Of a DNA stretch of 64,000 nt, positions 33,202 to 50,864 are shown piece after piece. The number at the start of each line of letters is the position of its first letter. Positions within the stretch are counted from its first letter, which is position 1. The stretch is from Desulfobacula toluolica Tol2. GTDB taxonomy: Bacteria > Desulfobacterota > Desulfobacteria > Desulfobacterales > Desulfobacteraceae. Location of the stretch: the NCBI RefSeq assembly GCF_000307105.1, contig NC_018645.1, positions 717,001 to 781,000 of the forward strand, given 5' to 3'. The translations under genes were made by a program, and so were the position numbers. The notes beneath the pieces were generated by a model. It made no database searches and was not told the DNA's origin. It was given only the letters and a program-made list of their open reading frames with translations.

Positions 33202-33487
33202 CCTTTGAAATTCGCTCTTTCAAAAGAGGACTCAAGTCCTCCCGATAGGTAACAACGTCAACCGGCATTCCAAGGAAATTTTCTAAGCTCATTTTTAAAC
33301 CGATTCTATTTAAAAGATTACGTTTGCTTAGCTCTACAACAATATCAATATCGCTATCTTTATTGACGGTTCCTCTGGCAACGGATCCAAAAATGCCCAT
33401 TTTAGTAACCCCGAATTTTTTGGCTTGTTTCTTTTTATATTCTTTTAACAGGGTTATAATGTGTTTTTTATTAATCATCATCCTCAT
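33185..33487 (-). CDS. mntA: MNT-type nucleotidyltransferase antitoxin
   Basis: 100 residues. GIFGSVARGTVNKDSDIDIV contains the nucleotidyltransferase signature GSxARG...DxD. In HEPN/MNT pairs this enzyme AMPylates the HEPN toxin and neutralises it. It is the first gene of the pair. Its first ~103 bases are repeated, with the upstream sequence, at 61498-61629. Confidence 0.82.
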   Translation of the reverse strand: MRMMINKKHIITLLKEYKKKQAKKFGVTKMGIFGSVARGTVNKDSDIDIVVELSKRNLLNRIGLKMSLENFLGMPVDVVTYREDLSPLLKERISKDVIYV

Positions 33488-33800: not shown

Positions 33801-33915
33801 GCCTGATTACACAAGGCTTGGCGGTTAATATGTGAAATCCAAAAAACGTAAATTTTTCTCACGTTTTTTAAAAACAAAGCGTATCAGAAAACATATAAAA
33901 AAAGAGGGGTGGTTT

Positions 33916-34672: not shown

Positions 34673-36391
34673 TTAAAAATTTAAAGCCGTGTCCATCTCT
34701 TCAGGACGGATTAAAACGACTTTATTGTGCGGTAAAAGCGGTTCTTTATAAAAGAATTCAGGTAATCGGTCATCCTCACTGGTTAATCCGGCTTTGCGGT
34801 TAAATTCCAATTCTTGTTTTAACACCCTGACGCCAAGGGCCGGGATATCGTCCGGGTCGAGCTGGGCGCCGAATTTGGCATTCATGACATTTAAAAACGC
34901 TTCTGCTCCCTCCGGTGTGGTCAAGGCAAAGCTTGCCAGCAGGCACAGGCCTGTACAATCCACCGCTGCCATGGCAATCTGCGTATTCCGGGATGCTTCG
35001 ATCTGGCCTTCGGGTTTCAAGGGATCAAGGTTCCCGGCCATATATTCTCCCACGACATTCCCGGCCGTATGATCCGCTCCCATGGGGGAGGTGGCATAGG
35101 TAACCGCATTTCCCTGCATGCCCCGGGGGTCATAGGCGGCAATGCTTTGGCCCTTGACGGTGGGCACCCTGTGGTGATTGAAATGTTTGCCCACGGCATC
35201 CGGGCCGTTTCCCAGTATTTTTCCCAGTTCCGTACCCAGGCCGATCTGTTCGACCATGTCAATGGCGGCCTCGCCATCGCCAAACTTTATTTTTCCGGCA
35301 TCCATGGCAACGCCTATGCCCACGCCCGTGTTCATAGTATCAACCCCCATATCATCGCAAAGCCTGTCCAGCCTGGCAATGATATCCAGATCGTCAATGC
35401 CGGTCATTCCACCCATTGACCAGATGGTTTCATATTCAAGGGAAGAGGTGACAAACTCTCCCTTTTTATCTACAAATTCATTTGAACACCGGATAATGCA
35501 TTGCGAACACCCTAAATGAGTATTGTTGCCGCCTCTTTTTTTATTCAGTTCGGCAAGTGCTTCCCCACTGATTTTTTCCCAGCCTTCCATCACGCCTGTT
35601 GTGGCATTGAGACTGGGGAAAGCCCCCATGGAATTGACAGGGGCTACCAGACCGGCTGTTCCCAGGGCAGGCAGCATCTGCCCGGTCAAGGGGTGGGCTT
35701 TGACAGCCTGGGCAAAGGCTTTTGCCGCTTCTTTAAACGCCTGGGGGTCGGCAATGGCATCGGTTTTTTTTCCCTGGCTGTCAATGACAATCGCCTTTAA
35801 TCTTTTTGCCCCCATCACCGCTCCCATCCCGCCACGACCGGCTGCCCGGCAGGGACGGCCATCCACATCCGAGGCCTGGATGGAGGCGGATGTCAATTGG
35901 TATTCACCTGCCGGGCCAATGACCAGAATCGAGGATTTTTCCCCGTAGGTTTTAAGCAGGGTTTGTGTGAGGGGATAGGTTCTCATCCCTTTATATTCAT
36001 TTGCCGGGATGAGACTTGCCGTTCCCTGGTGGTCAATTCTTAAAATATACAATTCGTCATCATTTGCCTGGCCCTCAATGATAATGGCTGTAATGCCCAG
36101 ATGTCCCAGGGCAGCGCCGGTGGTGCCTCCGGCGTTGCTTTCCTTTATGCCGCCTGTCAAAGGGCTTTTCGCGCCAATGGACACCCGGCTGGTATTGACC
36201 AGACTGGTTCCGCTCAAGACACCGGGTGCAATGATCAGTTTGTTGTCGGGCCCAAGGGGATCACATGTTGGTGGAACCTCCGCATTTATCATTGTTGAGG
36301 TAAGTCCTCTGCCGCCAAGCCCCAGGTATTGCTGTGGAACGTCATTCAAATTGATGGATTTTTCGGTCATGTTGACATTAATAAATTTCAT
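34673..36391 (-). CDS. tungsten-type aldehyde:ferredoxin oxidoreductase
   Basis: 572 residues, family length ~600. GLGGRGLTSTMI near residue 25 and GAKSPLTGGIKESNAGG near 73 are the pterin-binding AOR N-domain motifs. The [4Fe-4S] cysteines appear as CSQCIIRC near residue 294 and DCTGLC near 479. AOR enzymes oxidise aldehydes to carboxylic acids with ferredoxin (or the reverse) in the cytoplasm and are oxygen-sensitive. The position downstream of an amine dehydrogenase suggests it removes the aldehyde product. It starts 31 bp after the protease gene. Confidence 0.92.
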   Translation of the reverse strand: MKFINVNMTEKSINLNDVPQQYLGLGGRGLTSTMINAEVPPTCDPLGPDNKLIIAPGVLSGTSLVNTSRVSIGAKSPLTGGIKESNAGGTTGAALGHLGITAIIIEGQANDDELYILRIDHQGTASLIPANEYKGMRTYPLTQTLLKTYGEKSSILVIGPAGEYQLTSASIQASDVDGRPCRAAGRGGMGAVMGAKRLKAIVIDSQGKKTDAIADPQAFKEAAKAFAQAVKAHPLTGQMLPALGTAGLVAPVNSMGAFPSLNATTGVMEGWEKISGEALAELNKKRGGNNTHLGCSQCIIRCSNEFVDKKGEFVTSSLEYETIWSMGGMTGIDDLDIIARLDRLCDDMGVDTMNTGVGIGVAMDAGKIKFGDGEAAIDMVEQIGLGTELGKILGNGPDAVGKHFNHHRVPTVKGQSIAAYDPRGMQGNAVTYATSPMGADHTAGNVVGEYMAGNLDPLKPEGQIEASRNTQIAMAAVDCTGLCLLASFALTTPEGAEAFLNVMNAKFGAQLDPDDIPALGVRVLKQELEFNRKAGLTSEDDRLPEFFYKEPLLPHNKVVLIRPEEMDTALNF

Positions 36392-36422: not shown

Positions 36423-37106
36423 TTAAATGGTTTTGGCAGACGCTGCCAGTTGTTTTTTTATCTGGAAAATATTTTTATCGGGGTGATGTTTCATCAATTG
36501 CGCTGCTTTTGCCGTGACATGGGCTACGGCAAAGCTGTTGCCCCGAAAGTTTTGTTCCTGGGGCATCCCGGGTATTGCTCTTGGCAGGCCATGGGCACCG
36601 AATTCAATTTTTGATTCAGGATGAAATACCATCTGGTCTTTGTCGCAGTCATGGTTCCAGTACACACCAATAACGGTTTGAAAAAACGCGGGAAATATTC
36701 TGTCCTCAGGTCCCCTTGCCGAAGCCAGAATAAGTATATTCCTATCATGGGCTTTTTGGCACAAGGGCTTTAAATTCTGAGCAAGCGCTTCGTTTTCCAC
36801 ACCCAGACTCAGGTGGATGATCTTAAACGGTTTGTCTATGGCCCATTTCAGGGCCTCAATCAAACTTGAGGCTGATGCGGTAAGATCGCGGTGAAAAATT
36901 TTAATGGCATACAGGTCTGCAAAAGGGGCCTTTTGCCGGATAATGCCGCAAATTGCCGTGCCATGACCGATCTCATCCTTAAAATCACGGGTTTTTTCAA
37001 TTTGCCCCTTTGAATTGACCCCATACCCGTGTCCGCCGGAAACGGTCTGCACATGGAAATGGTGCGGGTTGACGCCGCTGTCAATAATCGCGATATCAGG
37101 ATTCAT
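36423..37106 (-). CDS. qhpE: subtilisin-like (S8) protease, QhpE-like leader peptidase
   Basis: 227 residues without signal peptide, hence cytoplasmic. The S8 catalytic triad is present: Asp9 (IAIIDSG), His48 (EIGHGTAICG) and Ser191 (FRGNSFAVAHVTA). It is short for a subtilase because only the core domain is present, as in QhpE, which removes the leader of the QHNDH gamma subunit after cross-linking. It overlaps the ABC transporter gene by 11 bp. Assignment as QhpE rests on fold, compartment and operon. Confidence 0.82.
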   Translation of the reverse strand: MNPDIAIIDSGVNPHHFHVQTVSGGHGYGVNSKGQIEKTRDFKDEIGHGTAICGIIRQKAPFADLYAIKIFHRDLTASASSLIEALKWAIDKPFKIIHLSLGVENEALAQNLKPLCQKAHDRNILILASARGPEDRIFPAFFQTVIGVYWNHDCDKDQMVFHPESKIEFGAHGLPRAIPGMPQEQNFRGNSFAVAHVTAKAAQLMKHHPDKNIFQIKKQLAASAKTI

Positions 37107-38868
37107 GGTTCAACTCCTTTGCAGGCCCCTGGTATGAAATGCCGTTTTCATCCAGGACAATGATTTTATGGGCGTTTTCAATGGAAGATGCCCGATGGCT
37201 CACAAGAAGGATGGTTTTGTCTTTCATCAATTGTCTGAGAGTCTGTTTTATTTGGTTTTCCACCTTTACATCCAGAAAGGCAGTGGCTTCATCCATGATT
37301 AACACCTTTGGGTTGAGCAGTATGGCCCTGGCAATACTGAGCCGCTGTTTCTGGCCGCCTGAAAGCCGGGTGCCCCTGTCCCCGATCAAGGTGTCATATC
37401 CCCGGGGCAGCGATTGAATAAAATCGTCTATCTGGGCTGCTTCTGCTGCTTTTTCAATCTCTTCTTGGGAGGCTTCTGGTTTGAAAAACCGGATGTTTTC
37501 AAGTATGGAGGCGTGAAACAGAAAGGTTTCCTGGGACACCATGGCAACTTGTTTTCTAAACCAGTTTTTATCAAAGGTTTTAAAATCCTGCCCGGCCCAG
37601 GTGATGGTTCCGGCGTCAGGATTGAACAGCCTTAATAAAAGGTGGCACAGAGTGGTTTTGCCGACCCCGCTTGGCCCCACCAGTGCTGTGGTTTTTCCTG
37701 AAGGAAGTGTAAAGGAGGTGTTGTTCAAAATCCGGGTGTTCTTGTCATAGGAAAAACCGACCCCATTCACACAGATATCCTGTTCCATCTGGGCTTTGGT
37801 CAGTATGGTGTCGCCGGTGTCATCAAAACAGGGGGGGATGTCCAAAATTTTTCTGACCCGTTTGATGGCGACCTTGGATTTCTGCAACGACAGAACACCG
37901 TCTAAAAGCCCCTGCAATGGACCAAAGACCCGTCCTTGGTAAACTGAAAACGCCACCAGGCTGCCAACGGTCAGCTGACCCTCCAGGACCTGCCATCCCC
38001 CGTACCCAAAAACAATCAGGGAGTTCACAATACCAAAGGCCGTGGACACGGAACCGGATACCGCACCAAGGACCTGGTATTTTAAAAGGAATGTCAGGAC
38101 AGCCGACTGCTTGTCCTTTAATTTGTTCGACTCTGTTTTTTCCGCACCGAACGCCCGTATGACAGCGGTGTTGGAAAGAGACTCAAACAAGAAATGAGCA
38201 ATATCGGCATTGCTTTTGGCAACATCATTGGAAAGGCTGAACAGTCTGGGTTTAAGCTTTTGCACAATGATCACAGCAAAGGGCAGAAACACCAGGCTCA
38301 TCAAGGCCATTTTCCAGTTCAGGCTGAACAGGATGACGCCTGAAATCAGGCAGGTTAAAAAGTCAAACACATACCTGGGAAAAATATCCGTGACCAGGGC
38401 CTGGATGTCTGCCATATCCGATGCAATCCTTGAATAGATATCCCCTAATTTTTTTTTGGAGAAAAACGTCAGGGATATTTTTTGAAGATGATCAAACAGG
38501 TCTTCTCTCATTAAAAAAAGAATTTTCGCAGAATATCTTGTATAGATATAGCCGTTACCCACCCTGATCCCGAAGCTGATGATGAGAAGGGCAATCAGGG
38601 CAGCCAGGATGGAAAATAAAAATTGCGGCTGGTTGCCAAGAAAGACCCGGTCAATGAGAATCTTGGCAAAATAGGGCTGTACCATCCCCAGCACGGTACT
38701 GATGGTGCTTAAAAAAAGGGAAAAAATCAACACCTGTTTGTGAGGGGCAAGATAGGCCCCCAGATATCTGATCTGGCTGAAAAATGGTTTTTCTTGCTCA
38801 GGCTTCTCTAAAGTAGCACATGTATCCACTGTCGCAGTATTCAGGGGTTTGGCGCAGATCTCTTGCAT
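37096..38868 (-). CDS. qhpF: ABC transporter, fused permease-ATPase, QhpF-like
   Basis: 590 residues: six membrane helices (about 30-330) then a nucleotide-binding domain with Walker A GPSGVGKTTLC near residue 400, signature LSGGQKQRLSIARAIL and Walker B VLIMDEATAF. The architecture is that of peptide or lipid exporters. In QHNDH operons this protein is proposed to take the processed gamma subunit across the inner membrane. The annotated start overlaps the U32 gene by 71 bp; a GTG at 38829 would shorten the overlap. It overlaps qhpE by 11 bp. Confidence 0.82.
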   Translation of the reverse strand: MQEICAKPLNTATVDTCATLEKPEQEKPFFSQIRYLGAYLAPHKQVLIFSLFLSTISTVLGMVQPYFAKILIDRVFLGNQPQFLFSILAALIALLIISFGIRVGNGYIYTRYSAKILFLMREDLFDHLQKISLTFFSKKKLGDIYSRIASDMADIQALVTDIFPRYVFDFLTCLISGVILFSLNWKMALMSLVFLPFAVIIVQKLKPRLFSLSNDVAKSNADIAHFLFESLSNTAVIRAFGAEKTESNKLKDKQSAVLTFLLKYQVLGAVSGSVSTAFGIVNSLIVFGYGGWQVLEGQLTVGSLVAFSVYQGRVFGPLQGLLDGVLSLQKSKVAIKRVRKILDIPPCFDDTGDTILTKAQMEQDICVNGVGFSYDKNTRILNNTSFTLPSGKTTALVGPSGVGKTTLCHLLLRLFNPDAGTITWAGQDFKTFDKNWFRKQVAMVSQETFLFHASILENIRFFKPEASQEEIEKAAEAAQIDDFIQSLPRGYDTLIGDRGTRLSGGQKQRLSIARAILLNPKVLIMDEATAFLDVKVENQIKQTLRQLMKDKTILLVSHRASSIENAHKIIVLDENGISYQGPAKELNHES

Positions 38869-39835
38869 AATCTTTTATCCTGTCGTTTTGGGTATGATTT
38901 CTGGTTTTATCCCGCACAGCCTTGACCAGCTGCAGGCTTCCCATTTTTCTGTGAAACGAGGCTTCTCTGCCCACGATTTTGACGGCTGTCACTCCCCAGT
39001 CCCTGAAATGACCGAACCCGCAAAGACTACAGGGGCCATTGGGAAGACCGTCTTTTTGAAAGCTTGATCCGCAGTTGTTCTGAAACCAGAGAAATTCTTT
39101 GTAATGCGTCATGCAGTAGTCCAGGTTTTTGGAAAAAGACCGGTTTTTTTTAAAGGAGCCGGTTTTTAAGGAGCCAACTTTTAAGGGACCGGTTTTTAAA
39201 GAGCTGGAGGCTTCGATTTCCCAGTCCGTAAGGCAGAACGCACCCAATGTATGACTGGTCTGGCAGAACCCTTCTTCAAAATAGCACCCGTCATTTAAGG
39301 CAAACACTTCAAATTCCATTTTATCCGCATTTGCTTGAACAATGGATTTGATTTCCGGCAGTGTTAACTGGCGCGGCAGGATGATCCTGTCGACGCCAAG
39401 AGAACGGTAAAAGTCGATTGAATGAGAATTAAAGCAACTTCCCAGGCTGGACAGATGAATCCGGACCGGCAGTTTTTCTTTTGAAAGCGCTATCAAAAGA
39501 TTTAAATCCGATACAATCAGGGCATCCACACAAGCCTGGTTCACAATTCGATCACACAGTTTTAAAATACAGGCAATGCCTTTTTCAGGGTAAAAGGATG
39601 CATTCAAGGTGATGCTCACCTTGACGGAGTTGTTGTGAGCCGCGGTTGTGATTTTTTCCAGGTCTTCCCATGACGATAGATTTGCCTGTTGGGGACTCCT
39701 GCGGTTCATCCATAACCCCTGACCGAAGATCTCATCCCACTCAGGAGTTCGAAGGCCGCAATACAGCTCGTCCGCGCCGTTGTGCAGGAGCATGTCAAGT
39801 TCTGAAACATTGCTGATGGGCGTGATGATTTTCAT
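38798..39835 (-). CDS. U32 family protein resembling UbiU (predicted O2-independent hydroxylase component)
   Basis: 345 residues, close to E. coli UbiU (331). The U32 barrel start is MKIITPISNVSELDMLLHNG ADELYCGL. FEVFALNDGCYFEEGFC (Cys184, Cys191) matches UbiU FEVFAFGSLCIMSEGRC in residue type and the seven-residue spacing. Cys201 and the later CSLC (269/272) can complete a [4Fe-4S] site, and VTAVKIVGR parallels the UbiU ASVKIEGR. An unusual Lys/Ser/Gly-rich repeat (about 212-231) interrupts it. It starts with a 4-bp ATGA overlap with the UbiV-like gene. I infer a UbiUV-type hydroxylase acting on the gamma-subunit Trp; a peptidase role is the older U32 label. Confidence 0.75.
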   Translation of the reverse strand: MKIITPISNVSELDMLLHNGADELYCGLRTPEWDEIFGQGLWMNRRSPQQANLSSWEDLEKITTAAHNNSVKVSITLNASFYPEKGIACILKLCDRIVNQACVDALIVSDLNLLIALSKEKLPVRIHLSSLGSCFNSHSIDFYRSLGVDRIILPRQLTLPEIKSIVQANADKMEFEVFALNDGCYFEEGFCQTSHTLGAFCLTDWEIEASSSLKTGPLKVGSLKTGSFKKNRSFSKNLDYCMTHYKEFLWFQNNCGSSFQKDGLPNGPCSLCGFGHFRDWGVTAVKIVGREASFHRKMGSLQLVKAVRDKTRNHTQNDRIKDYARDLRQTPEYCDSGYMCYFREA

Positions 39836-40716
39836 AGAAGTCCTCCCTGATAAACCAGACGCAATCCCTGGTGCCGGGCATTTTCAAACAAAGACCTGAG
39901 CATGGCAGGGGTATATTGATAAAAGATGGTATTGCCGTTCTGAAACAGTTTAAAGGCAAGATTTGAATGTTTCAGCAAAAGACTTTGCGTGGCGCATGGA
40001 GACGAACATTTGCCTGCGAGTCTGAACCGATTGCCGGGGGTCTGGTTCAACCCGGCGGTAAAACAGACCCTGCCCGTGGTGACATATCCAAAAGGAAAAT
40101 ATACAGCTGTCTTGAGTCTGGACGGGGTTACAAATCCAGGGTTTGCATAGGGCAGAAGATCCTGTTCAAGCCGGTGAACGCCAAGATTTTCCGCCAGAAC
40201 CTGAAGGTTTTCGTGGCGAAATGAGCAGTCGTTTAAAAGTCCTCCCATTTCTTCTGAAGCTGCAAGATCTTTATCTTTGAGCCGGGGATCTTTAAATCCC
40301 CTGTTGAAAAGTCTGCCCATGGAGAGTTGAAAATTTGGATATTGTTTTTTCAGGAAAAACAACACCCCTAAATCATTGACCACCACCTCGGCTTCTGGAT
40401 TCCATTGGTTTAATCTGTCAAACAACGGCGTGCAGTGTTCAATCCCCTGGTCTGTCAGAACCGGTGTTAAAAGGGTGAGGGATAGATTTTTTTGTTCTGC
40501 AAACCCGCACAAACAAGACAGTTCCTGCGGGTTTGGCAACCGGGTCGGGCAAAATTCATCTCCCACATAAATACGGTCCAAAGAGGACAGGGCCTCATCC
40601 GGATAAAGGTCTTCCGAACTTGTTTCTGTGTAAATGGTGTTAAGTTCCTGCATAAATCCATCAGGAAAATCCTTTACACTGTTCCTTGTCATGTGCCATG
40701 CCACTTTCATGTTCAC
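39832..40716 (-). CDS. U32 family protein resembling UbiV (predicted O2-independent hydroxylase component)
   Basis: 294 residues, the length of E. coli UbiV (292). LDRIYVGDEFCPTR (Cys56) parallels UbiV VIYLGEAVCSKR, VVVNDLGVL parallels ASDLGVV, and GRVCFTA (Cys218) with KCSSPC (Cys237, Cys241) gives the four-cysteine [4Fe-4S] pattern of UbiV. UbiU and UbiV act as a heterodimer that hydroxylates ubiquinone precursors without O2. A sulfate reducer makes menaquinone, so ubiquinone is not the expected substrate. The gene is inside the QHNDH operon, 18 bp after the cytochrome and coupled by ATGA to the UbiU-like gene. Confidence 0.72.
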   Translation of the reverse strand: MNMKVAWHMTRNSVKDFPDGFMQELNTIYTETSSEDLYPDEALSSLDRIYVGDEFCPTRLPNPQELSCLCGFAEQKNLSLTLLTPVLTDQGIEHCTPLFDRLNQWNPEAEVVVNDLGVLFFLKKQYPNFQLSMGRLFNRGFKDPRLKDKDLAASEEMGGLLNDCSFRHENLQVLAENLGVHRLEQDLLPYANPGFVTPSRLKTAVYFPFGYVTTGRVCFTAGLNQTPGNRFRLAGKCSSPCATQSLLLKHSNLAFKLFQNGNTIFYQYTPAMLRSLFENARHQGLRLVYQGGLL

Positions 40717-40734
40717 CCCCTTTTTTCTCTTGAA

Positions 40735-41289
40735 TCAACCGGCCTGGTTTTCCTGGGCGCTTACTTTTTCAAAAAACTTCTGCCCTTTTCTCATCTCATG
40801 GTTATGGCAGTCCTTGCAGGGTTGGGAGGCAACGTTTTTGATCAGTTTGTTGTGTATTCTGACCTGATCGCTTTCTTTATGGTTTTCCACATTCTTGCAG
40901 CTGAAACATCGGCTGTTGGGCACATGGCTCCAATATCCTGGTTCCTTTCCTTCGTCCAGGAACAACGGCTCTTCCTTGGGTTTAATGGGTTCATTGGGAT
41001 CTCTTTTGAAATGTTCCACAGACAGCCTGAGTGCGGATTTATTCATGTCCATCCATCCCTTGAATCCTTTGTCAAAATGGCATCCTGCACAATTTCCATG
41101 ATTTTTAGCCGTACCGGATGCTTTCCAGTTTTCAATGGGCGCTTTCATTTCATGACAGACCACACAGGTTTTATCCTGAAAATACACAACGGACAATTCG
41201 TGGGCACCGAACCCGACAACAGGAATCGTCGCCAGCAGTATGATCAGGATTATTTTTTTGCTTTGTTTTAAGTGTTTGATAATATTCAT
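40735..41289 (-). CDS. membrane-anchored multiheme c-type cytochrome, NapC/NirT-like, with one CXXCK site
   Basis: 184 residues. One N-terminal membrane anchor (about 12-30) leads to a periplasmic domain with CVVCH, CAGCH and CKDCH heme-binding motifs and, third in order, CFSCK, where Lys replaces the axial-ligand His. NapC/NirT/NrfH proteins pass electrons between periplasmic enzymes and the quinone pool. Here it could take electrons from the QHNDH alpha-subunit hemes into the membrane. Lys-ligated hemes are known from the NrfA active site. A hairpin and a repeat element occupy the 253-bp gap upstream to qhpB. Confidence 0.82.
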   Translation of the reverse strand: MNIIKHLKQSKKIILIILLATIPVVGFGAHELSVVYFQDKTCVVCHEMKAPIENWKASGTAKNHGNCAGCHFDKGFKGWMDMNKSALRLSVEHFKRDPNEPIKPKEEPLFLDEGKEPGYWSHVPNSRCFSCKNVENHKESDQVRIHNKLIKNVASQPCKDCHNHEMRKGQKFFEKVSAQENQAG

Positions 41290-41324
41290 AGTCTTATTCC
41301 AATCTTTTTAGAGTGCCTTGTCAC

Positions 41325-41412
41325 GGTTTATATGAAAGAACTTATAACCAGTTGTAATCAAAACTCTTTCATTTTTTGTTGTGGCAGCTCAATCTGCCAT
41401 GGCCGTTAATGC
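41325..41412. repeat. dispersed intergenic element, copy A
   Basis: GGTTTATATGAAAG, a loop, CTTTCATTTTTTGTTGTGGCA and CAATCTGCCATGGCCGTTA. It shares both hairpin arms and tail with 752-830. It lies in the 253-bp gap between qhpB and the cytochrome gene, about 36 bp upstream of the latter's start, so transcribed from the minus strand it would be in the cytochrome leader. Confidence 0.5.
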
Positions 41413-41447
41413 GTCGGTATTTTAATGCTCTTTTGCAGGCCGGGACA

Positions 41448-41497
41448 TTCCAGGAAACCGTTTATCTATTATCCATGAACGGTTCCCGGAATGTTCT
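41448..41497. other. intercistronic hairpin between qhpB and cytochrome gene
   Basis: cattccaggaaaccgtt pairs with aacggttcccggaatg across a ~13-base loop, about 17 bp of stem with two mismatches. There is no T-run on the minus strand, so it may stabilise the upstream mRNA or attenuate rather than terminate. Confidence 0.5.
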
Positions 41498-41542
41498 TTA
41501 AACTGATTTTGCATCACAGGGCTTGGTGCCGTGTGAAAAACG

Positions 41543-42583
41543 CTATCTTTTGGTAAAGCGGGTCATATACTCTCCGTCTGCCATGAGCGGAATGACGCTT
41601 AACAGTTCAAGTGTTTTTGTATCATACACACTGATATCCGGACCGGCAGGACCGACATAAATCTTTTTGCCGTCCGATGTCAGGGCAACCGTGTAATTGG
41701 TGCCTGTTTTCAAAGGTACGGCCTTGACGGTCTCGCCGGTTGCCATATCCACTTTTATCAGCTCATCCATAACCGCATAGATGAATTTTTTATCCGGCGA
41801 CAATATGCTGGAGTAGGCAAACCAGACATCTTTTCCCCGAAGAACACTCAATTTGCCGGTATTTTTATCAATGATAAAGTACCCCAGTCCCTGTGCGTCA
41901 TAATAGGGGTTTACAAAAATGCCATGATCTCCGGGGCTGCCGGGCTGCCAGACCACCAGGGAATTTCTCATGTCCTCGGGTTTTTTAGTGTTTAAAAGCC
42001 CCATCATCTGTTCTGTTTTGCCGGTTTTAAGGTTTAGTTTGAGGATATCCAGACCTACCAGAACCAGATGGTCCGGGTCATTGATAAGGGTGATGGGTGA
42101 AGAGAAACTGGCAGGGATAGGATAATTTTTTACCATTTTTCTGCCGGCAATATCATATTCTACAAGTTGGGGCGGCAGAACATTGAGCTTGGGAATATTC
42201 TGTTTTTTCTTTGTAATGGAACAGCACATGTAGAGCTTTTTTCCGTCATTGGAAACCGTTATCCCGAATACGGACACCTTGCTCAATTCCGAGGAAAAAG
42301 AAAGGGTGTCTATCAATTTGTCAGTGGCCGTGTCAATGACATATACAGACTGTACGGCATTCAAATAGTATCGTTTGCCGTCCGGAGAAAACGCTGCTGA
42401 AAGAATCGTGTCATTGTACGGTATGGTTTTGATGATGGTGTCGGTGTCACAATCAATAATCTGCAGGCCATTTGAAACCGGCGCATAAATAAAATCCTTT
42501 GCCCAGGCCCCCTGGGAAACCAAGGTCATCAGGATAAAGGTGATGATGGATATCAGTGCAATCTTGCTTTTATTCGGCCTCAT
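41543..42583 (-). CDS. qhpB: quinohemoprotein amine dehydrogenase beta subunit (beta-propeller)
   Basis: 346 residues with a signal peptide ending SQGAWA-K, so periplasmic. The mature chain is a seven-blade YVTN-type propeller (repeats such as AFSPDGKRYYLNAVQSVYVI, LSPDKKFIYAVMDELIKVDM). The length matches the QHNDH beta subunit (~340). In the enzyme it contacts the gamma subunit and closes the active site. A stand-alone YncE-like protein would look similar; the position directly after the gamma gene (16 bp) and in the full set of qhp genes supports the QHNDH assignment. Confidence 0.85.
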   Translation of the reverse strand: MRPNKSKIALISIITFILMTLVSQGAWAKDFIYAPVSNGLQIIDCDTDTIIKTIPYNDTILSAAFSPDGKRYYLNAVQSVYVIDTATDKLIDTLSFSSELSKVSVFGITVSNDGKKLYMCCSITKKKQNIPKLNVLPPQLVEYDIAGRKMVKNYPIPASFSSPITLINDPDHLVLVGLDILKLNLKTGKTEQMMGLLNTKKPEDMRNSLVVWQPGSPGDHGIFVNPYYDAQGLGYFIIDKNTGKLSVLRGKDVWFAYSSILSPDKKFIYAVMDELIKVDMATGETVKAVPLKTGTNYTVALTSDGKKIYVGPAGPDISVYDTKTLELLSVIPLMADGEYMTRFTKR

Positions 42584-42599
42584 TGGTGGTATCTCCTTT

Positions 42600-42923
42600 T
42601 TATCGTTTGATCACAAAATTCAAATTTCTCCAATCCTTCTCAATGGCCTGGCATTGATTCTGGAAATCAGGAAAATTGGTGACGCTGTCAGGTGTCTGGG
42701 CCGGCCACCAGCAGGACCCGGAGCAGGCAGTAAAGTCTCTTGCGCTTGACAGGCAGTTGCTCATGGGGGTTTCAGCACGCGGGTTTGTTTCCCAGCCCGT
42801 ATCAAAAATCGTGGTGCATCCGATGGGCATACCTGTCATGATATTGTCATCGGCCATGCCTTTGACCTCATGTTCAATCTTTTTTGCTTTTTTATTAATG
42901 GGTTTGAGATCTTTTTTTTTCAT
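42600..42923 (-). CDS. qhpC: quinohemoprotein amine dehydrogenase gamma subunit precursor (CTQ peptide)
   Basis: 107 residues with a ~29-residue basic leader and no Sec signal. The core starts MPIGCTTIFDTGWE. The residues that cross-link in Paracoccus QHNDH are all present at the same spacings: Cys36-Glu45 (+9), Cys57-Asp63 (+6), Cys71-Asp79 (+8) for the three thioethers, and Cys67-Trp73 (+6) for the cysteine tryptophylquinone itself, within ACSGSCWWPAQTPD. This is the catalytic subunit: CTQ oxidises primary amines to aldehydes and ammonia. One extra Cys (91) is not in the known pattern. Flanked by an outer-membrane protein gene and qhpB. Confidence 0.93.
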   Translation of the reverse strand: MKKKDLKPINKKAKKIEHEVKGMADDNIMTGMPIGCTTIFDTGWETNPRAETPMSNCLSSARDFTACSGSCWWPAQTPDSVTNFPDFQNQCQAIEKDWRNLNFVIKR

Positions 42924-42981
42924 TTATTTCTCCTTATTAAATCCTGGATTTTGTTAAAAAGTTTTCTGCGAAGAGACAGGA

Positions 42982-43809
42982 TTAAAAAATGTAAACAAGC
43001 CGCAGATATGTCCAGGAGCCTTTTGTGAAAGCTTCAGACTCTACGTCATGCATGTAGCGCAAATTGACCATTAGATTTTCCTGCAGTGCGTAGCCCAGGT
43101 TAAAGCCCAGTTTTAAATTTTCTCCCTGGGTGCCGTCAAGGGAGACGCCCTTGGATTCAATATCGTCAAAGTCTTTCCACCAGGCACCTTGAATTCCGAC
43201 ACGAAACTTTTCCGTAACCGCATAGGCAACCGCCGCCTCAAGCTCAATCGCATCCGAGACATCGGCACCAGTGGCATCCTCGTCTTTTTGCCAGTAATTT
43301 AAGCAGACATCCAGGGAATAGGGGCCGGGATACCAGCCAAAGGCGACCTGGTGTTGAAACCACCAGGAATCATTGCTGACGTCATCGGAACCGGTAGGGG
43401 TATAGGCAAATTCCCAGAAAGAGAGAAACAGCTGGTCTTCAAAATTCTCATACAGGAAGATAAAAGGGCCGACTACTAAATCCCCCACACCCGTTGCCGT
43501 GTCTGCACCATCGGTGGCAATGTCTAAAAGCGGGACAACGGCATTGACCCCCCAGGTTTTTCCCCATACTTTTCCCGCAAAATAAACAGGTCTGAATGCG
43601 GCATAGGCAACATCGACGCCGATATCCACTGTGGTGCCGTCTTCGGTTTCATATTCCGGCAAATGCTGATAGCCAAAATAGTTGATAAGGACTTTGGTTC
43701 CCACAGGCGCGGAACTATTGTCCAGAGGGTCTAATACATCTGCCTGACAGATGGTACTGATTGCCATAAAAAATAAAATGCTGCATAAACACGTTAATCG
43801 TTTTTTCAT
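42982..43809 (-). CDS. outer-membrane beta-barrel protein (phenol-degradation MetA/transporter-like)
   Basis: The frame is open from 43887, but ATG 43809 gives a clean signal peptide (MKKRLTCLCSILFFMAISTI, cleaved after CQA), so that start is chosen; 275 residues. The mature protein has alternating beta strands (GKVWGKTWGVNAVVPLLDIA, LKLGFNLGYALQENLMVNLR) and ends in a Phe (RLVYIF), the outer-membrane assembly signal. It resembles the MetA-pathway phenol-degradation/SphA-like barrel family, probably a channel for hydrophobic or amine substrate. It is not part of the classical qhp set but lies between qhpD and qhpC on the same strand. Confidence 0.78.
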   Translation of the reverse strand: MKKRLTCLCSILFFMAISTICQADVLDPLDNSSAPVGTKVLINYFGYQHLPEYETEDGTTVDIGVDVAYAAFRPVYFAGKVWGKTWGVNAVVPLLDIATDGADTATGVGDLVVGPFIFLYENFEDQLFLSFWEFAYTPTGSDDVSNDSWWFQHQVAFGWYPGPYSLDVCLNYWQKDEDATGADVSDAIELEAAVAYAVTEKFRVGIQGAWWKDFDDIESKGVSLDGTQGENLKLGFNLGYALQENLMVNLRYMHDVESEAFTKGSWTYLRLVYIF

Positions 43810-43858
43810 GAAATTGCTCCTGCAAACCGTTAAGAGTTTATCCGTTCTTTTTACCCGA

Positions 43859-45316
43859 TCAAACCAGCGGGTTAAACAAGGGTTCATGCCCTCTGAGCAT
43901 GGAAAGTTTATCCAGAAAAGAGGGGGCTTGTTTCATTAATCTGCCATACACATTCAGCCCTGTGGCAATCCAGGTTTTAATCCATTGGCAATAATGCAGA
44001 TTGGGCAACAATAGATCACCTTCCCTGATTTTTGCCTCGTGGTAACACCCCCCTGCACAGATGGAGGCGGCCCAGCATCCTTTGCAGTCGCTTTTTTTGT
44101 CCAGTCCCGCGTCCAGCCTGAATGTTCCAAGCTTTTCCCGGTCAAGGCCGTCAAAGATATCCCCCATCCGGGCGGAATCATCATGGGTCAGTCTCTGGCA
44201 CAGGAAAAGACCGCCTTTGGGATCAACTGAAAACATGCCGATCCCTGCGCCGCAAGGGTATTGTTTTACTTCCCCCTCATGCAGCGTTACCAGCAGGTCC
44301 ACCAGATTGGTGAATCCCAGGAATTCATCTTTCAGGGCAAGGTTGATGAATGTCTCGGACAGGTGTACAAATTGTTCAAGTAAGGACGTCATCTGGTGGG
44401 CATCCAGTTGAAAATCCGTATCCATGGTCGTGACCGGTGCAAACCCGACTTCTGAAAATCCAAGACCCAGAAGATGGTAAAGGGTTCTTGAAATATCCTT
44501 TGCGTCTTTTGCCAGCGTTACCCTGGCCACCACAGGTTTCGGGTTTTCTTTGCCGAGAAATTTTTTTATTTTCGGCAGGATGACTTTATAGGAGGGAGAA
44601 CCGTCAGGAAACTGCCTGAAACGATCATGCACCGCTTCAAGCCCATCCAGGCTGACCGTGGTGCCGATTTTGTTTTCATTCAGGAAGTGTATGGCTTTAT
44701 CCGTTAAAAGCGTGCCATTGGTTGTCATGGCATATTCGATGGTTTTAGCGTTTTCCCGTGCTTTTTCATTTGCATAGGTGACGGTTTTGGAAATGAGGTT
44801 TAAATTGAGCAGGGGTTCTCCCCCGAAAAAGACCAGAACAAGCTCCTCAAGTCCCCTTGAATGCTCAAATAAAAAATCAACTGCTTTTTTTGCCACCTTA
44901 AACTCCATTGACAAATCCGGTGTTTTGTTCAAACCCAATGATTTGTTTGTGTTTTCGGGATTGTGATAGCAATAATGGCATCCCAGGTTGCAGGCTTCCG
45001 TCACATGAAGCACCAGTGTTTTTAAGGGAATCTCAGGAAAATGTTGCAAGGGTTTGTTTTCAGGCAGTTCTTGTGGCGCCAGAACCCGGTTCTTTGCAAG
45101 ATCGTTCCATAAGCTGTCTTTATCGCTCCGGGTTCCTTTTAAAATGGAATAAACGTCTTGTTTTGTGAACGTGCGCTGACTGATGTCATGATTAAGAATG
45201 GCCTGTGTTTCAGATCCGGTTTCAATTTCAAATATGGAACCTGTCTGTGTCATAAAAACAAACTCATTCCCATTGGCCTGAAATCTTTTATGGTCGGCAA
45301 TTTTCATCATTTCCAT
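43859..45316 (-). CDS. qhpD: radical SAM/SPASM enzyme, QhpD-like thioether-forming maturase
   Basis: 485 residues. The radical SAM cluster motif is CNLGCHYC (Cys109, 113, 116), followed by the GGEPLL motif. The C-terminal SPASM region has CKGCWAASICAGGCYHEA and HYC for auxiliary clusters. QhpD forms the three Cys-to-Asp/Glu thioethers in the gamma subunit in the cytoplasm. It begins 8 bp after the alpha-subunit gene, the arrangement seen in qhp operons. Its 3' end overlaps only the unlikely upstream part of the barrel protein frame. Confidence 0.92.
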   Translation of the reverse strand: MEMMKIADHKRFQANGNEFVFMTQTGSIFEIETGSETQAILNHDISQRTFTKQDVYSILKGTRSDKDSLWNDLAKNRVLAPQELPENKPLQHFPEIPLKTLVLHVTEACNLGCHYCYHNPENTNKSLGLNKTPDLSMEFKVAKKAVDFLFEHSRGLEELVLVFFGGEPLLNLNLISKTVTYANEKARENAKTIEYAMTTNGTLLTDKAIHFLNENKIGTTVSLDGLEAVHDRFRQFPDGSPSYKVILPKIKKFLGKENPKPVVARVTLAKDAKDISRTLYHLLGLGFSEVGFAPVTTMDTDFQLDAHQMTSLLEQFVHLSETFINLALKDEFLGFTNLVDLLVTLHEGEVKQYPCGAGIGMFSVDPKGGLFLCQRLTHDDSARMGDIFDGLDREKLGTFRLDAGLDKKSDCKGCWAASICAGGCYHEAKIREGDLLLPNLHYCQWIKTWIATGLNVYGRLMKQAPSFLDKLSMLRGHEPLFNPLV

Positions 45317-45324
45317 GACGTATC

Positions 45325-46962
45325 CTATTTCAAGTGAGTTATATAATCCGGGACCGTCACGGCAAGGCGGACCCTGTCCGTAAGTTGTCTGCCCTGGTCT
45401 TCAAACATTGCATTTACGGCAATGAGGCCAACACCTTCTCTGTTCTGTTTTCTTGTCTTTATGGGACCATAGGTTGATGTCGGGGTGTAAAGTCCGTTGA
45501 TTAACGGTACATTCAGATATGCCATATCATCATCGTCTTCACGGGTTTTTTCTTCTTCCAGTTCCCATTGGGCGGTTACAGGGTCCAGAACCAGGTCATC
45601 CGAGGTTCCTTGTTTTCCATCCGCTCCAAAATTGATTCCCCTGGCAACAAACTGAACGCCCTGGGGAGGATATGCGGCACCGCTGCTGACCCGTGCCCGT
45701 CCGATCCTGGGCGATACGCTGATGGCATCTATCTTGTCAAAAATTTTGAGACCTTTAAAATTCAATTTTTTAACGCTTACATCTGCCAGGCCGGTGGCGG
45801 CACCGGCTGCCACAATGACATTGCAGACCAGTTCCGAAGAATTTGTTTTTACGAGGCTTGTCACGGTGATATTGGGATCTGAAAATCGAACGTCGGTTTT
45901 TGAAATGTTTTCAGAAAGCCCAACCCCCACCAGTGTCAATGTCTGTTCCGTGCCGGGAAGCACCCTTAATGACTGTGGGAACGAGGCTATAATTTTTGGC
46001 GCACTGGTGGTTTTATAAAAAGCTTCATTGCCATAGGCATTTGAATCCTGAACAACCGTCCACCATTTTCCCTTAAATCCCATTGTGTCGGCATTAAGAT
46101 CAAACACGCCTTCGACTCTTCCGGTAAGAGGCGTAGGTGCCAGTGCATATCTTAAATGATACTCACTGAAAAGTGTGCCTTCACCCTTTGTGGAAATATT
46201 GAGGCCGCTTTTGTATTGAATCTTTTTTTCAATGAAATATTCGTCTTCACCCTTGGCCAGGTTGGGCTCAATGGTATAAACTCCTTGATAATATCCCATG
46301 CCGGGCTGATATCCCGCCACATTCCACTGCCCTGTCAGATCCTGGTCTTTTCTGTTTTTAAGCCATTTTTTATACTCCGGGGTGTCAAAGGCAAATAATT
46401 TGGACAGGGGTTCATTCAGCGCTTCGGATTCCTTGTACCAGTCCATTTCACGCATCTGGGGAATGACGGTAGGATAGTATCCAAGATGAAGGTTCCTGTT
46501 TTCATTCCATTGATCTTTTGTCATTTTGTGGGATGCGATCTTGCCAAAGGTATGGCATCTGACACAGGCCGTATAGATCCTTGTTTCCAGGTCATTTTTC
46601 GGAATTTCCCGGTATTGGCTGTTTTCATCACTGTTTAAATAAGCAACTTTGTCGGATTCTTCAGGGGTAAGGCAAAGGGTTTTACTCAACTCCTTTATGA
46701 CGGGGTAGAACTCTTCGTCTTCCAGGGGCGCACTGTTCAGGCGGATCATCCGGTCGACCACGACTTTCCATTCTTCCGTCGATTTTCTTGTCTCTTCAAT
46801 CACTTCAAGGCGGCCTTTGGTATCCGGCTTATGGCAGGCGGCACATTTTTGCCTGACCATGGAAGTGTCCCCAAATAAGACATCTCCATAGACGGTAGAT
46901 CCTGCAAGTGGATAAATACCCAGCAGGACGAACATCGTACTTAATCGAATTAATTTTCTCAT
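45325..46962 (-). CDS. qhpA: quinohemoprotein amine dehydrogenase alpha subunit (diheme)
   Basis: 545 residues. A signal peptide ends near STVYG-D. The N-terminal diheme domain has CAACH (40-44) and CVRCH (133-137). Three Ig-like/beta domains follow (about 200-545, LTGQWNVAGYQPGMGYYQGV..., LPGTEQTLTLVGVGL), as in the family. The hemes accept electrons from CTQ and pass them on, here probably to the membrane multiheme cytochrome. It is the first gene of the operon. The 970 bp upstream to the divergent reverse transcriptase gene hold a possible sigma-54 site and inverted repeats but no gene. Confidence 0.93.
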   Translation of the reverse strand: MRKLIRLSTMFVLLGIYPLAGSTVYGDVLFGDTSMVRQKCAACHKPDTKGRLEVIEETRKSTEEWKVVVDRMIRLNSAPLEDEEFYPVIKELSKTLCLTPEESDKVAYLNSDENSQYREIPKNDLETRIYTACVRCHTFGKIASHKMTKDQWNENRNLHLGYYPTVIPQMREMDWYKESEALNEPLSKLFAFDTPEYKKWLKNRKDQDLTGQWNVAGYQPGMGYYQGVYTIEPNLAKGEDEYFIEKKIQYKSGLNISTKGEGTLFSEYHLRYALAPTPLTGRVEGVFDLNADTMGFKGKWWTVVQDSNAYGNEAFYKTTSAPKIIASFPQSLRVLPGTEQTLTLVGVGLSENISKTDVRFSDPNITVTSLVKTNSSELVCNVIVAAGAATGLADVSVKKLNFKGLKIFDKIDAISVSPRIGRARVSSGAAYPPQGVQFVARGINFGADGKQGTSDDLVLDPVTAQWELEEEKTREDDDDMAYLNVPLINGLYTPTSTYGPIKTRKQNREGVGLIAVNAMFEDQGRQLTDRVRLAVTVPDYITHLK

Positions 46963-47933: not shown

Positions 47934-50864
47934 ATGCGGATTAGTATAAATACCGATTTTGAAAATAGAGACTTAGTTTTAGATGCTTATCGTAAATTAA
48001 AGCAAAACACATATCATGACACAGTAAATCTGTTTCTTAGAAAAAGAATTGCTGAATTTGAAACATCTAAAAATTTTGAACAGCAAATAGATAAATTAAC
48101 AGAATATGTATCCGATTTAAAAAATGATTCAGATAAAATTCCTTCTGATGGTATTTTAAATACACTTTTAAAAAAAGTAGATGTTTTATCTCTTCCCAAA
48201 AAGATTAAAAATGATAACAATAGCAACTCAAAAGGCATTTTTATTTCAAATGATAGAAGCCAGGTTGACTACGATCTTGAAAGTGTAAATTACTTTATAG
48301 ATGCGCCTATTGCTTTGTTTATTTTGGATGTCATCTGGAGTTTGAAAGCAGGTGTTATTCTTGATAGAACATTACATGAAAATTGCCTTGGTAATCGATT
48401 AAAACATTTTGAAGATGATAAATATAACAAATCCTCACCGTTGTTCAAAATATTCCATACTCAATATAAAGATTGGCGGGATAATGCTCTTAAATGTGCA
48501 TTGAATGAACTTGATAATAAGAAAGATATATTATTTATCGGGTTGGATATTAAAGAGTGTTACTATCATTTAGGAACGGATTGGAAGGGGATTAAAGATT
48601 ATCTTAAAAAATCTGTTGTTGATCAAAGTGAGCTTGTTTTTCTTCAAAGTTTAACAAATGTGCTTCGTGAAATTTATACGAAATATCATCAAATAAGCTC
48701 TCCTTTGCTAGAGAAAACACATAAATCCGCTTCAGAAATTCAGGGTTTGCCTATAGGATTAACATCTTCTCAAATTATTGCAAACTGGATGCTTAAAAAT
48801 TTTGATGATAAAGTAATAAAAAAACTACAGCCATCTTATTACGGGCGGTATGTTGATGATATACTGATTGTTATGCAATCTCCTGACAAAGAAATTATTC
48901 AAGGGAAAAACGATACACTAATTAAAGAACTATTTGTAAAAACAGGGTTGTTGGAGCAAAAAAAGAACAAGACCGATTCAGATAAACCCACTGAGTTTAT
49001 TTTAAGTGTTTTAAAAAATCTTGAAATCCAACAAGAGAAATTTGTGATCCAGCATTTTGATCATAAACATAGTCGTGCAGGATTAAGCGAATTTAAACGT
49101 GAAATTGATGAACAAGCCAGTGAATTTCGTTTTTTACCAAGAGGGGATGACCACCGCGGATTGGATGAGTGCGCTTTTGATATTCAATATAAAGGCTCCA
49201 TTAATAAATTACGTAGTGTGATTGGGCTTGAGGAAAACAGTACAGAATTGTCAAAATATCTATCCCGCAAAATTACACAACATCGTTTATGTTCTGATGA
49301 ATCAGTGTCTGAACATATTGATCAGTTATTTCGGTTTTACAAAGGGAGAAATATTTTTGATTTTTGCAGGTTATGGGAAAAAGTATTTATATTGTTCCTG
49401 ACAAATAACAGGGAAGCCGATTGCGCAAAATTTTATAATACCTGCAAGGTAACAATAGAGAAATTAAAGTATAACGATGATGAAATTTTAAAGAAAGTTA
49501 CCAATGATGCAAATTTGTATCTGAACGCTTCTCTTTCATTGACATTAGCTTTACGAGAGAAAGATGTTTTAAAAAATTTAAAATCAAAAAACCTGAAAAA
49601 AATCATCAACCCTGGAAAGAATAAAATAAAGATGATTCAGGATTTAATGATATCATTTCGTGAATCAAACATGCTCAGGCATCATTTTGTATCATCTCCG
49701 TTACTTAATTACACCGATTATTCAGGTAATTATTTAGAGTTTTCTCCGGCAGAATATAAAGGTCTTGAACTATCTGATAAAAAAGAAAAGTTCTCACCAA
49801 GGTATATTCATAATGATGAACGGAAATTGTTTGATATCTTCGATAAAATAACTCAAATTGAAAAAGGCAAGCCCTTAGAGTTTTTATTGGATGAAAGTAA
49901 TGAAAATGTTCCATTTGTTAAACACAATTCTGATACATCAATTCCTGATACATCAATTCCTTTTATTGATGTATGTTTTAAAACTCCAGCAAAAGAAAAC
50001 ATAAGGATTGGGATCGTAAATCTTAGGGTTCCTGAAGAGGATATTGGAAAAAGTTATCATCCTCGTAAAAAACCAAATGTCAGTATGGATAGGCAGAGTG
50101 TCCTTTATGATTTAATAAATGAAGCCATAAAAAAACCAAAATGCGACCTGGTTGTATTTCCGGAGTTAAGTATACCGTTAAAATGGCTATCCCTAATGAT
50201 TAATCAGGCAAGGAAAAATCAAATCGGTTTGGTTTTTGGCTTAGAATATTGGGTGGTTGATGATGTTGCCCTGAATTTAATTGTAACTGTTTTACCCTAT
50301 AAAAAAGATGGTCAATATTTATCAACCTTTGTTTCGCTTCGAATAAAAAATCATTATGCTCCTTTAGAGGAATTCAATCTGAAGAGCGTTGGGTATTCAC
50401 TCCCTGAAGTTAAAAAGTATTATGAAAAGTATTGCTGGAACGGTTGCGCTTTTTCTGCATACTATTGTTTTGAACTGGCAAATATTCACCATCGGGGACT
50501 TTTTCGTTCTGAACTTGATTTTTTAATTGCATCTGTCTGGAATAAGGATATTAAATATTATTCCAATATTATAGAATCTGTATCCAGAGATTTACATTGT
50601 TATGTTATTCAGTCTAATACTTCACATTATGGTGATTCGCGAATAACAGCTCCTCAAAAAAATGAGGTTATGGATTATGTTCGTGTCAAAGGCGGTACGA
50701 ATCCAACCCTGTTAAAATCTAACTTAAATCTTGAAAAATTAAGAAATTTTCAGAGCAGTTTATATAGGCCTGATGATAAATCCTTTAAACCAACGCCTGC
50801 GGGATATAATCATGATAAAGCACGAAATAGAGCTCGGTGTGAAGTTTGTAAGTATCAATTATAG
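47934..50864 (+). CDS. reverse transcriptase-nitrilase fusion (DRT class 1, UG1/UG5-like)
   Basis: 976 residues. The RT domain (about 115-360) has LFIGLDIKECYYHL (motif A Asp), QGLPIGLTSSQIIANW (motif B) and YYGRYVDDILIV (motif C, Asp308-Asp309). The C-terminal domain (about 695-976) is a carbon-nitrogen hydrolase with a plausible Glu744 (VVFPELS), Lys805 (RIKNHYAP) and Cys845 (AYYCFEL) triad. RT-nitrilase fusions are the class 1 defence-associated reverse transcriptases that give phage resistance. The stop codon lies in the IS3 end; removing the IS (3-bp target aat) changes only the last residue or two, so the gene is effectively intact. Confidence 0.85.
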   Translation: MRISINTDFENRDLVLDAYRKLKQNTYHDTVNLFLRKRIAEFETSKNFEQQIDKLTEYVSDLKNDSDKIPSDGILNTLLKKVDVLSLPKKIKNDNNSNSKGIFISNDRSQVDYDLESVNYFIDAPIALFILDVIWSLKAGVILDRTLHENCLGNRLKHFEDDKYNKSSPLFKIFHTQYKDWRDNALKCALNELDNKKDILFIGLDIKECYYHLGTDWKGIKDYLKKSVVDQSELVFLQSLTNVLREIYTKYHQISSPLLEKTHKSASEIQGLPIGLTSSQIIANWMLKNFDDKVIKKLQPSYYGRYVDDILIVMQSPDKEIIQGKNDTLIKELFVKTGLLEQKKNKTDSDKPTEFILSVLKNLEIQQEKFVIQHFDHKHSRAGLSEFKREIDEQASEFRFLPRGDDHRGLDECAFDIQYKGSINKLRSVIGLEENSTELSKYLSRKITQHRLCSDESVSEHIDQLFRFYKGRNIFDFCRLWEKVFILFLTNNREADCAKFYNTCKVTIEKLKYNDDEILKKVTNDANLYLNASLSLTLALREKDVLKNLKSKNLKKIINPGKNKIKMIQDLMISFRESNMLRHHFVSSPLLNYTDYSGNYLEFSPAEYKGLELSDKKEKFSPRYIHNDERKLFDIFDKITQIEKGKPLEFLLDESNENVPFVKHNSDTSIPDTSIPFIDVCFKTPAKENIRIGIVNLRVPEEDIGKSYHPRKKPNVSMDRQSVLYDLINEAIKKPKCDLVVFPELSIPLKWLSLMINQARKNQIGLVFGLEYWVVDDVALNLIVTVLPYKKDGQYLSTFVSLRIKNHYAPLEEFNLKSVGYSLPEVKKYYEKYCWNGCAFSAYYCFELANIHHRGLFRSELDFLIASVWNKDIKYYSNIIESVSRDLHCYVIQSNTSHYGDSRITAPQKNEVMDYVRVKGGTNPTLLKSNLNLEKLRNFQSSLYRPDDKSFKPTPAGYNHDKARNRARCEVCKYQL

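Follow-up and report, generated by a model that had tools for sequence, protein, structure and literature searches.

The qhp operon and its two U32-type genes

The DNA analysed here, called the window throughout, is a stretch of 64,000 nucleotides of Desulfobacula toluolica Tol2 (NC_018645.1, positions 717,001-781,000), and its source genome is a single contig of 5.2 Mb rated 100% complete. The minus strand of the window carries a qhp operon, which encodes a quinohemoprotein amine dehydrogenase with the cofactor cysteine tryptophylquinone (CTQ) and its maturation proteins, together with two adjoining genes for U32-type proteins that we call U32V and U32U. In the order of transcription on this strand, the operon comprises the alpha subunit QhpA with two CxxCH haem sites (45325-46962; QH_alpha TIGR03908, 307.6 bits, cut-off 274), the radical SAM/SPASM thioether-forming maturase QhpD (43859-45316; TIGR03906, E = 3.9e-127, 424.7 bits, below the cut-off of 453), an outer-membrane protein of the Phenol_MetA_deg type (42982-43887; PF13557, E = 1.4e-29), the gamma subunit precursor QhpC (42600-42923; QH_gamma NF037958, 134.3 bits, cut-off 50), the beta-propeller beta subunit QhpB (41543-42583; TIGR03907, E = 1.6e-35, 122.9 bits, below the cut-off of 223), and a NapC/NrfH-type multihaem cytochrome (40735-41289; PF03264, E = 2.5e-7). 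These are followed by the UbiV-like partner U32V (39832-40716, 294 aa), the UbiU-like partner U32U (38798-39835, 345 aa), the ABC exporter QhpF (37096-38868; PF00664 and PF00005, conserved in the operon), the subtilisin-like leader protease QhpE (36423-37106; NF049966, 162.5 bits, below the cut-off of 165), and a protein of the aldehyde:ferredoxin oxidoreductase (AOR) family (34673-36391; PF01314, PF02730).

The beta subunit, QhpD and QhpE each match their own model best, yet stay under its cut-off, and the genes for alpha, beta, gamma, QhpD, QhpE and QhpF all lie together, as is required of a qhp operon. An earlier note, made from the sequence alone, had described this complete set on one strand, and gene calls and family models confirm it; the cytochrome, the outer-membrane protein and the AOR family gene are additions to its list. 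Direct reading of the sequence also bears out the two U32 genes with their lengths and their overlap by ATGA, and the cysteine positions that the note had named in both proteins are correct in the translations. The arrangement is not due to chance, because other genomes repeat the core order A-D-C-B-V-U-F-E. Homologues of the outer-membrane protein adjoin qhpA in five other loci (L017, L018, L019, L020 and L021; L and G numbers are our handles for stretches and genomes).

The operon shares alpha, beta, gamma, QhpD, QhpE, QhpF and the cofactor residues with the QhpG-type qhp operon of Paracoccus denitrificans and Pseudomonas putida, but has U32V-U32U in place of QhpG (FAD, O2). The AOR gene was found in 14 of 54 U32-type stretches versus 0 of 28 QhpG-type stretches, and the same counts were obtained for the NapC/NrfH-like cytochrome, while three of the plasmid operons that were opened (L027, L029, L030) contain an aldehyde dehydrogenase gene instead of AOR. 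The aldehyde left by the amine dehydrogenase would probably be oxidised by the AOR family protein, the cytochrome is the likely electron exit, and both fit an anaerobic version of the amine pathway. When we scanned for promoters and terminators, the window was no richer in them than shuffled sequences.

In an alignment of 15 gamma subunits, the window gamma retains the CTQ residues C67 and W73 and the thioether pairs C36-E45, C57-D63 and C71-D79. The residues were assigned by the spacing of the Pseudomonas protein, with Cys37 and the thioether pairs of that protein as reference positions. Its Trp42-Trp43 is named in PMC7876137. Since the window gamma keeps the CTQ and thioether residues, its precursor needs two oxygens on Trp.

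In the known route of CTQ maturation, the Trp is dihydroxylated by QhpG, a flavin (FAD) enzyme that depends on O2. The earlier note had reported that the qhp operon of the window has no QhpG gene, and we found none there either. Across the window genome, a 25-row QhpG profile gave no match at 1e-10, a threshold at which it still caught the divergent QhpG of G1346 (4.2e-14), and NF049967 (QhpG) gave no match at 1e-20. When a 5-row QhpG profile was run at E<=10, the 45 matches were nearly all short FAD-binding stretches, the best reaching 28.8 bits. A QhpG-like flavoprotein elsewhere in the genome, which the earlier note had named as a finding that would refute it, was thus rejected by two profiles and NF049967.

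U32U belongs to the U32 family, matching PF01136 over its cut-off (E = 3.2e-29), and reaches 84.8 bits with the UbiU equivalog model, whose cut-off is 440, and 58 bits with the TrhP model. All 41 U32U relatives match PF01136 and, below the cut-offs, the UbiU and TrhP models, and profile comparison with family alignments relates U32U to UbiU (99.9%) and TrhP (99.6%). In the tree of U32 proteins, proposed as a check in the earlier note, U32U clusters with none of UbiU, TrhP and RlhA and forms its own clade (SH-aLRT 100); therefore this 345-aa protein is no orthologue of the ubiquinone or RNA hydroxylases. Seven cysteines (C184, C191, C201, C269, C272, C334 and C340) are invariant in 41 of 41 U32U sequences. 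The structural model of U32U has a pLDDT of 84, and the U32 protein 5D88 was ranked first by both Foldseek and VIA-align. For the other U32 genes of the window genome, the best match is TrhP or RlhA rather than UbiU. A search of plasmids with a qhp-type U32U gave 96 records; the 15 matches listed have 26-30% identity and several of them adjoin an SCP2 gene, so that they look like UbiU.

The cysteines of U32V are conserved as well, C56, C218 and C237 in 48 of 48 members and C241 in 47 (the remaining one has X). According to PMC6747719, the cluster ligands of UbiV are four cysteines. Those of U32V follow the same order, with CXnCX18CX3C in the window protein compared with CXnCX12CX3C in UbiV. 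The AF2 model of U32V (pLDDT 90) is a TIM barrel, for which 5D88 was the best Foldseek match (E 6.4e-5) and came second and tied by VIA-align; VIA-align discriminates little here, since TIM barrels of other families lie within 1-2 of the U32 protein. The UbiV-likeness of U32V rests on the four conserved cysteines, the predicted TIM-barrel model and the pairing with U32U. Searches of the PDB by sequence and of viral contigs led nowhere.

Taken as a pair, U32V and U32U resemble UbiU-UbiV in consisting of two adjoining U32-type genes with conserved cysteines, in UbiV-like order in U32V, and with U32U clearly UbiU-related. They differ from UbiU-UbiV in the separate clade, the score far under the equivalog cut-off, the lack of a UbiT-like gene, the cysteine spacing, and the predicted substrate, a peptidyl Trp. 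TrhP and RlhA, the prephenate-dependent RNA hydroxylases, share the U32 family with U32U, but are single proteins acting on RNA.

Distribution of the U32 pair and QhpG

In a one-genome-per-species scan with the gamma alignment, the best 80 of 569 matches were kept, giving 77 loci; because the most window-like matches were kept, the sample is biased to the type of the window. These loci were pooled with those of the lineage draws described below and with six of 26 plasmid records. Seven repeats were dropped (L016, L018, L019, L020, L022, L023, L129), L140 and L141 were left uncounted as they show no gamma, and a single gamma is shared by L103 and L128. Stretches were called by profile thresholds at 60 bits. 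Among the 104 gamma-bearing stretches, 49 carry both U32 genes, 5 carry one, 28 carry QhpG, 22 carry neither, and 0 carry both systems. When we considered the 71 stretches with gamma, QhpD, QhpE and QhpF in view, the pair was found in 39, one U32 gene in 0, QhpG in 27, neither in 5 and both systems in 0. The exclusion between U32 and QhpG has a Fisher p of 7e-15, uncorrected for kinship.

Three of the five stretches with one U32 gene (L031, L047, L052) end at a contig edge, and 12 of the 22 stretches with neither system are explained. L028 and L130 were rejected as members of this class because divergent QhpG-like proteins are present (60.2 and 68.5 bits). The pair lies elsewhere for L045, L046, L057, L103, L104, L127 and L100 (same record series as L083), and QhpG lies elsewhere for L085, L102 and L131; L103 was dismissed as an exception, the pair sitting on the same contig (L128). 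Ten stretches remain (L038, L048, L076, L079, L080, L084, L087, L090, L092, L126), of which L084 is in the same record series as L076, L079 and L080 show no QhpD, and the operon of L038 is broken.

For the comparison by genome, 62 genome entries (G396 repeats G077) were searched with the curated QhpG model at its cut-off of 240 bits. We counted 47 U32-type genomes, 46 with both genes seen and that of L047 with U32V only, leaving out three dual Acidobacteriota. None of the 47 reached the cut-off, the best being G405 (180.8 bits) and G077 (104.9 bits), and the apparent QhpG of G405 (216 bits with the 25-row profile) was discarded, as a CmlS-type halogenase fits it better (377.6 versus 180.8 bits). 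The cut-off was reached by 7 of 62 (G435, G487, G403, G609, G755, G402, G1200), all with QhpG-type operons or genomes. When U32V was sought in 34 genomes of the QhpG type or unresolved, four matched (G1123, G1200, G1275, G1350). The last three are the dual Acidobacteriota, and their U32U groups with the qhp-linked U32U (branch support 80). E. coli has both an O2-dependent and an O2-independent route to ubiquinone; by analogy, O2-dependent and O2-independent routes side by side would fit the dual genomes.

The mutual exclusion that the earlier note had proposed as a check stands by stretch and, by genome, in the 47 U32-type genomes; three Acidobacteriota carry both systems. As for its further condition, anaerobes on the U32 side, that side is not limited to demonstrated anaerobes when judged by record titles, among which are Burkholderiales, Gammaproteobacteria, Acidobacteriota and some Alphaproteobacteria.

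Gamma was also sought with NF037958 in genome draws by lineage, and was carried by 9 of the 395 genomes drawn from the phylum of the window, 7 of 385 Alphaproteobacteria, 2 of 369 Gammaproteobacteria and 11 of 199 Acidobacteriota; the latter three draws were centred on the known gamma genomes G403, G399 and G404 (G402 was also known beforehand), and 5, 1 and 10 of their carriers, respectively, were new. In the window's phylum, the pair is present in 9 of 9 gamma genomes, in the operon for seven (window, L016, L017, L019, L020, L021, L024), in a second cluster with QhpD, QhpE and QhpF in G077 (L140), and at a contig end in G200 (L141). Among the Alphaproteobacteria, QhpG is nearby in five of seven (L091, L122-L125) and elsewhere in G402, G720 shows neither U32V nor a full QhpG, and U32V is absent from all seven gamma genomes. 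Both Gammaproteobacteria have the pair on the contig of gamma and no QhpG over the cut-off. Of the Acidobacteriota, G404 has the pair, eight have QhpG in the region (L132-L139), G1346 has a divergent QhpG (L130), and G1347 has QhpG elsewhere.

All 49 gammas that the one-genome-per-species scan contributed from U32-type loci have the CTQ motif CxxxC[WF]W. The three gammas nearest to that of the window are 91-93% identical and come from two Desulfobacteraceae MAGs and one Proteobacteria MAG. In L024 (G344), whose operon has the U32 pair, the gamma (5689-6012) has the Trp pair and the three thioether cysteines without the CTQ cysteine, and its residues suggest that a quinone without the Cys crosslink might be formed. 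Two gamma genes and two alpha/beta sets stand side by side in L085-L089 and L094, mostly from Binatia. The Acidobacteriota loci L083 and L095 show QhpD, gamma, U32V, U32U, QhpF and QhpE with no alpha or beta within the stretch; in the record series of L083/L095, a different contig carries a second cluster (L100, L104), made up of alpha, QhpD, gamma and beta.

The U32 and QhpG labels need 4 changes when mapped on a QhpD tree with 94 rows, and 3 changes remain when five rows labelled U32 from elsewhere are removed (82 labelled rows left, in which L085 and L131 still carry a QhpG label from elsewhere). This tree was built quickly and includes some long branches; it rejects a single QhpG clade (p-AU 0.0007) and indicates at least three exchanges between the U32 pair and QhpG. 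The position of the pair also varies, after beta or NapC in some lineages, after QhpE in others and before alpha in L042 and L075, so that a frozen gene order does not by itself account for its link to qhp. All 44 pairs with enough sequence for measurement have V ahead of U on the same strand; the genes overlap in 33, and the other gaps are <=806 bp.

U32V matches at 0.001 were found in 60 of 395 genomes of the phylum. Eight reach at least 280 bits, seven of them with gamma and the eighth (G001) with the pair on a 3.1 kb contig; two gamma genomes score lower (G344, 179.8; G200, 131.9, cut by the contig), and 22 genomes show weak matches below 34 bits. The U32V-like genes of gamma-less genomes (L219, L221, L224 and others) often occur two per genome, some beside a U32U-like gene, and the neighbours of those viewed (L219, L220, L225) indicate no clear substrate. 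A sister clade is made up of four U32U-like genes that come from three genomes lacking gamma, and this clade without qhp genes would imply further substrates.

Neighbourhood of the operon in the window

A gene at 47934-50864 (+) encodes a fusion of a reverse transcriptase with a nitrilase-like domain (PADLOC RT_UG5-nitrilase, DRT, 819.5 bits), and one at 54776-57901 (+) encodes a 1041-aa protein matching a SIR2-fused prokaryotic Argonaute (PADLOC pAgo, 1461.5 bits); together the two genes suggest that a defence island adjoins the qhp operon. A small nucleotidyltransferase-like gene at 33185-33487 (-) matches the PADLOC candidate PDC-S09 (98.6 bits), and its partner at 32881-33201, which has no PADLOC match, we take to be HepT-like. 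Near-identical copies of one gene, by appearance of the acyl-CoA dehydratase/thioesterase type, lie at 14822-15283, 31928-32389 and 33832-34371, and those of another, presumably an IS66-like transposase, at 21851-23383 and 52328-53860. These near-identical copies indicate that the region was rearranged by mobile elements.

A possible O2-free route to the cofactor

Considering the operon and its relatives together, we think it likely that the product of the operon is a periplasmic amine dehydrogenase with a CTQ built without O2, the U32V-U32U pair supplying the Trp oxygens. The chemistry of the pair and its oxygen donor are proposed by analogy, and the activity is a predicted one. In the cytoplasm, QhpD would form three Cys-Asp/Glu thioethers while the gamma peptide still bears its leader, which is what it is reported to do in Paracoccus and Pseudomonas. 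U32V and U32U, as a putative heterodimer with 4Fe-4S clusters, would then hydroxylate Trp73 of the crosslinked peptide twice, at indole C7 and C6 (the positions proposed for QhpG), which is the step done by QhpG with FAD and O2. The donor would probably be prephenate, by analogy with RlhA, TrhP and UbiUV, the alternative being water; prephenate-dependent hydroxylation is described for RlhA and TrhP in PMC6599085, and prephenate is the suggested oxygen source of UbiUV in PMC11574389. QhpE would cut the leader, QhpF would export the peptide, and the final oxidation and the Cys67-Trp73 closure would take place in the periplasm. Electrons would leave via the alpha haems, perhaps to the NrfH-like cytochrome, and the aldehyde would pass to the neighbouring AOR. 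It is likely, too, that the pair represents a new subfamily of U32-fold Fe-S heterodimers that would place two oxygens into the Trp of a ribosomal peptide without O2, from prephenate or water, that was swapped with QhpG at least three times, and whose sister clade would act on other substrates.

The U32 pair might instead modify gamma in another way, as an aid to thioether formation, a chaperone or a protease, with the Trp oxygens coming from another enzyme or from trace O2. In its favour, the U32 family was originally placed among the peptidases, U32V is by sequence not demonstrably a U32 hydroxylase, and QhpG itself also assists QhpD according to PMC7876137. We nevertheless regard this as improbable: the absence of any stretch with both the pair and QhpG among the 104 argues that the pair fills the hydroxylase slot, the protease role already belongs to QhpE, which is kept in both operon types, and the conserved cysteines point to Fe-S clusters. 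It is very unlikely that the pair works in a different pathway (hydroxylation of quinones or RNA) and lies in the operon by chance or for shared regulation. The linkage of pair and qhp recurs across phyla, the U32U clade is separate from UbiU and TrhP, G399 has its own UbiU-UbiV pair besides U32V-U32U, and a scan of ten operon proteins gave no SCP2 (UbiT-like) match; the existence of U32V-like genes without gamma speaks for this explanation, as does the fact that UbiU and TrhP are the closest characterised relatives of U32U. That the operon makes another cofactor or none, so that hydroxylation is unneeded, could draw on the distant gamma of L024 described above, but all eight residues of cofactor and thioethers are intact in the window gamma and the CTQ motif is found in each of the 49 U32-type gammas counted above, and we consider this highly improbable.

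Several observations weigh against O2-free CTQ synthesis by the pair. Concerning the proteins, none of the 48 U32V members matches a Pfam or NCBIfam U32 model, PF01136 included, and one gives a 0.008 match to an unrelated model. When profiles were compared with family alignments, after a comparison with single E. coli sequences had proved weak for U32V, the match to UbiV was 23% (E 9e-4) and that to UbiU no worse (25%). The cysteine spacing of U32U also differs from that of UbiU: in place of CX6CX16CX38C, the window protein has CX6CX9C and then CX2C far downstream. Of the identity with UbiU/UbiV that the earlier note had proposed, what survives is that U32U is a UbiU relative; the proteins form a separate subfamily, and the UbiV match is very weak. 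Concerning the distribution, L037 and L041 have room past U32V, yet no U32U was found there, and six gamma genomes (G395, G397, G398, G400, G408, G720) showed neither U32V nor a full QhpG when searched; these hold 7 of the 10 remaining stretches, the other three (L087, L090, L092) lying outside the genome searches. The dual Acidobacteriota (G1200, G1275, G1350), with QhpG in the operon and a U32V-U32U pair elsewhere, weigh against strict exclusion. The QhpG cut-off of 240 is no clean divider, as the QhpG in the operon reaches 235.1 in G1275 and 199.1 in G1350, and the QhpG-like proteins of L028 and L130 lie far lower still. In the Gammaproteobacteria, the pair is ~14 kb (G399) and ~32 kb (G1123) from gamma. 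U32V-like genes are present in 28 gamma-less genomes of the phylum, 11 at 188-226 bits and 17 at 73-163, and the 3 independent contrasts on the QhpD tree, all in the expected direction, are too few for significance (p 0.25).

Anaerobic amine degradation in Aromatoleum aromaticum EbN1 reportedly involves two quinohemoprotein amine dehydrogenases (Schmitt et al. 2019, J Bacteriol), in which CTQ is reported to be formed without O2. The text of PMC7876137 mentions none of Aromatoleum, Schmitt and oxygen-independent, and our literature search, with subscription papers mostly outside its reach, found no paper joining U32 with cysteine tryptophylquinone or QhpD with UbiU. The U32 hydroxylases so far described act on ubiquinone precursors and RNA, according to PMC11574389, and O2-free cofactor building is not known as a job of this family. 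The pair thus provides named candidates for O2-free tryptophylquinone synthesis, an open biochemical question. If the proposal is true, gamma would be the first protein substrate for U32 hydroxylases, and the pair might serve as an anaerobic tool for Trp hydroxylation in peptides. It would also show how sulphate reducers and related bacteria can use an enzyme whose maturation has been considered to require O2.

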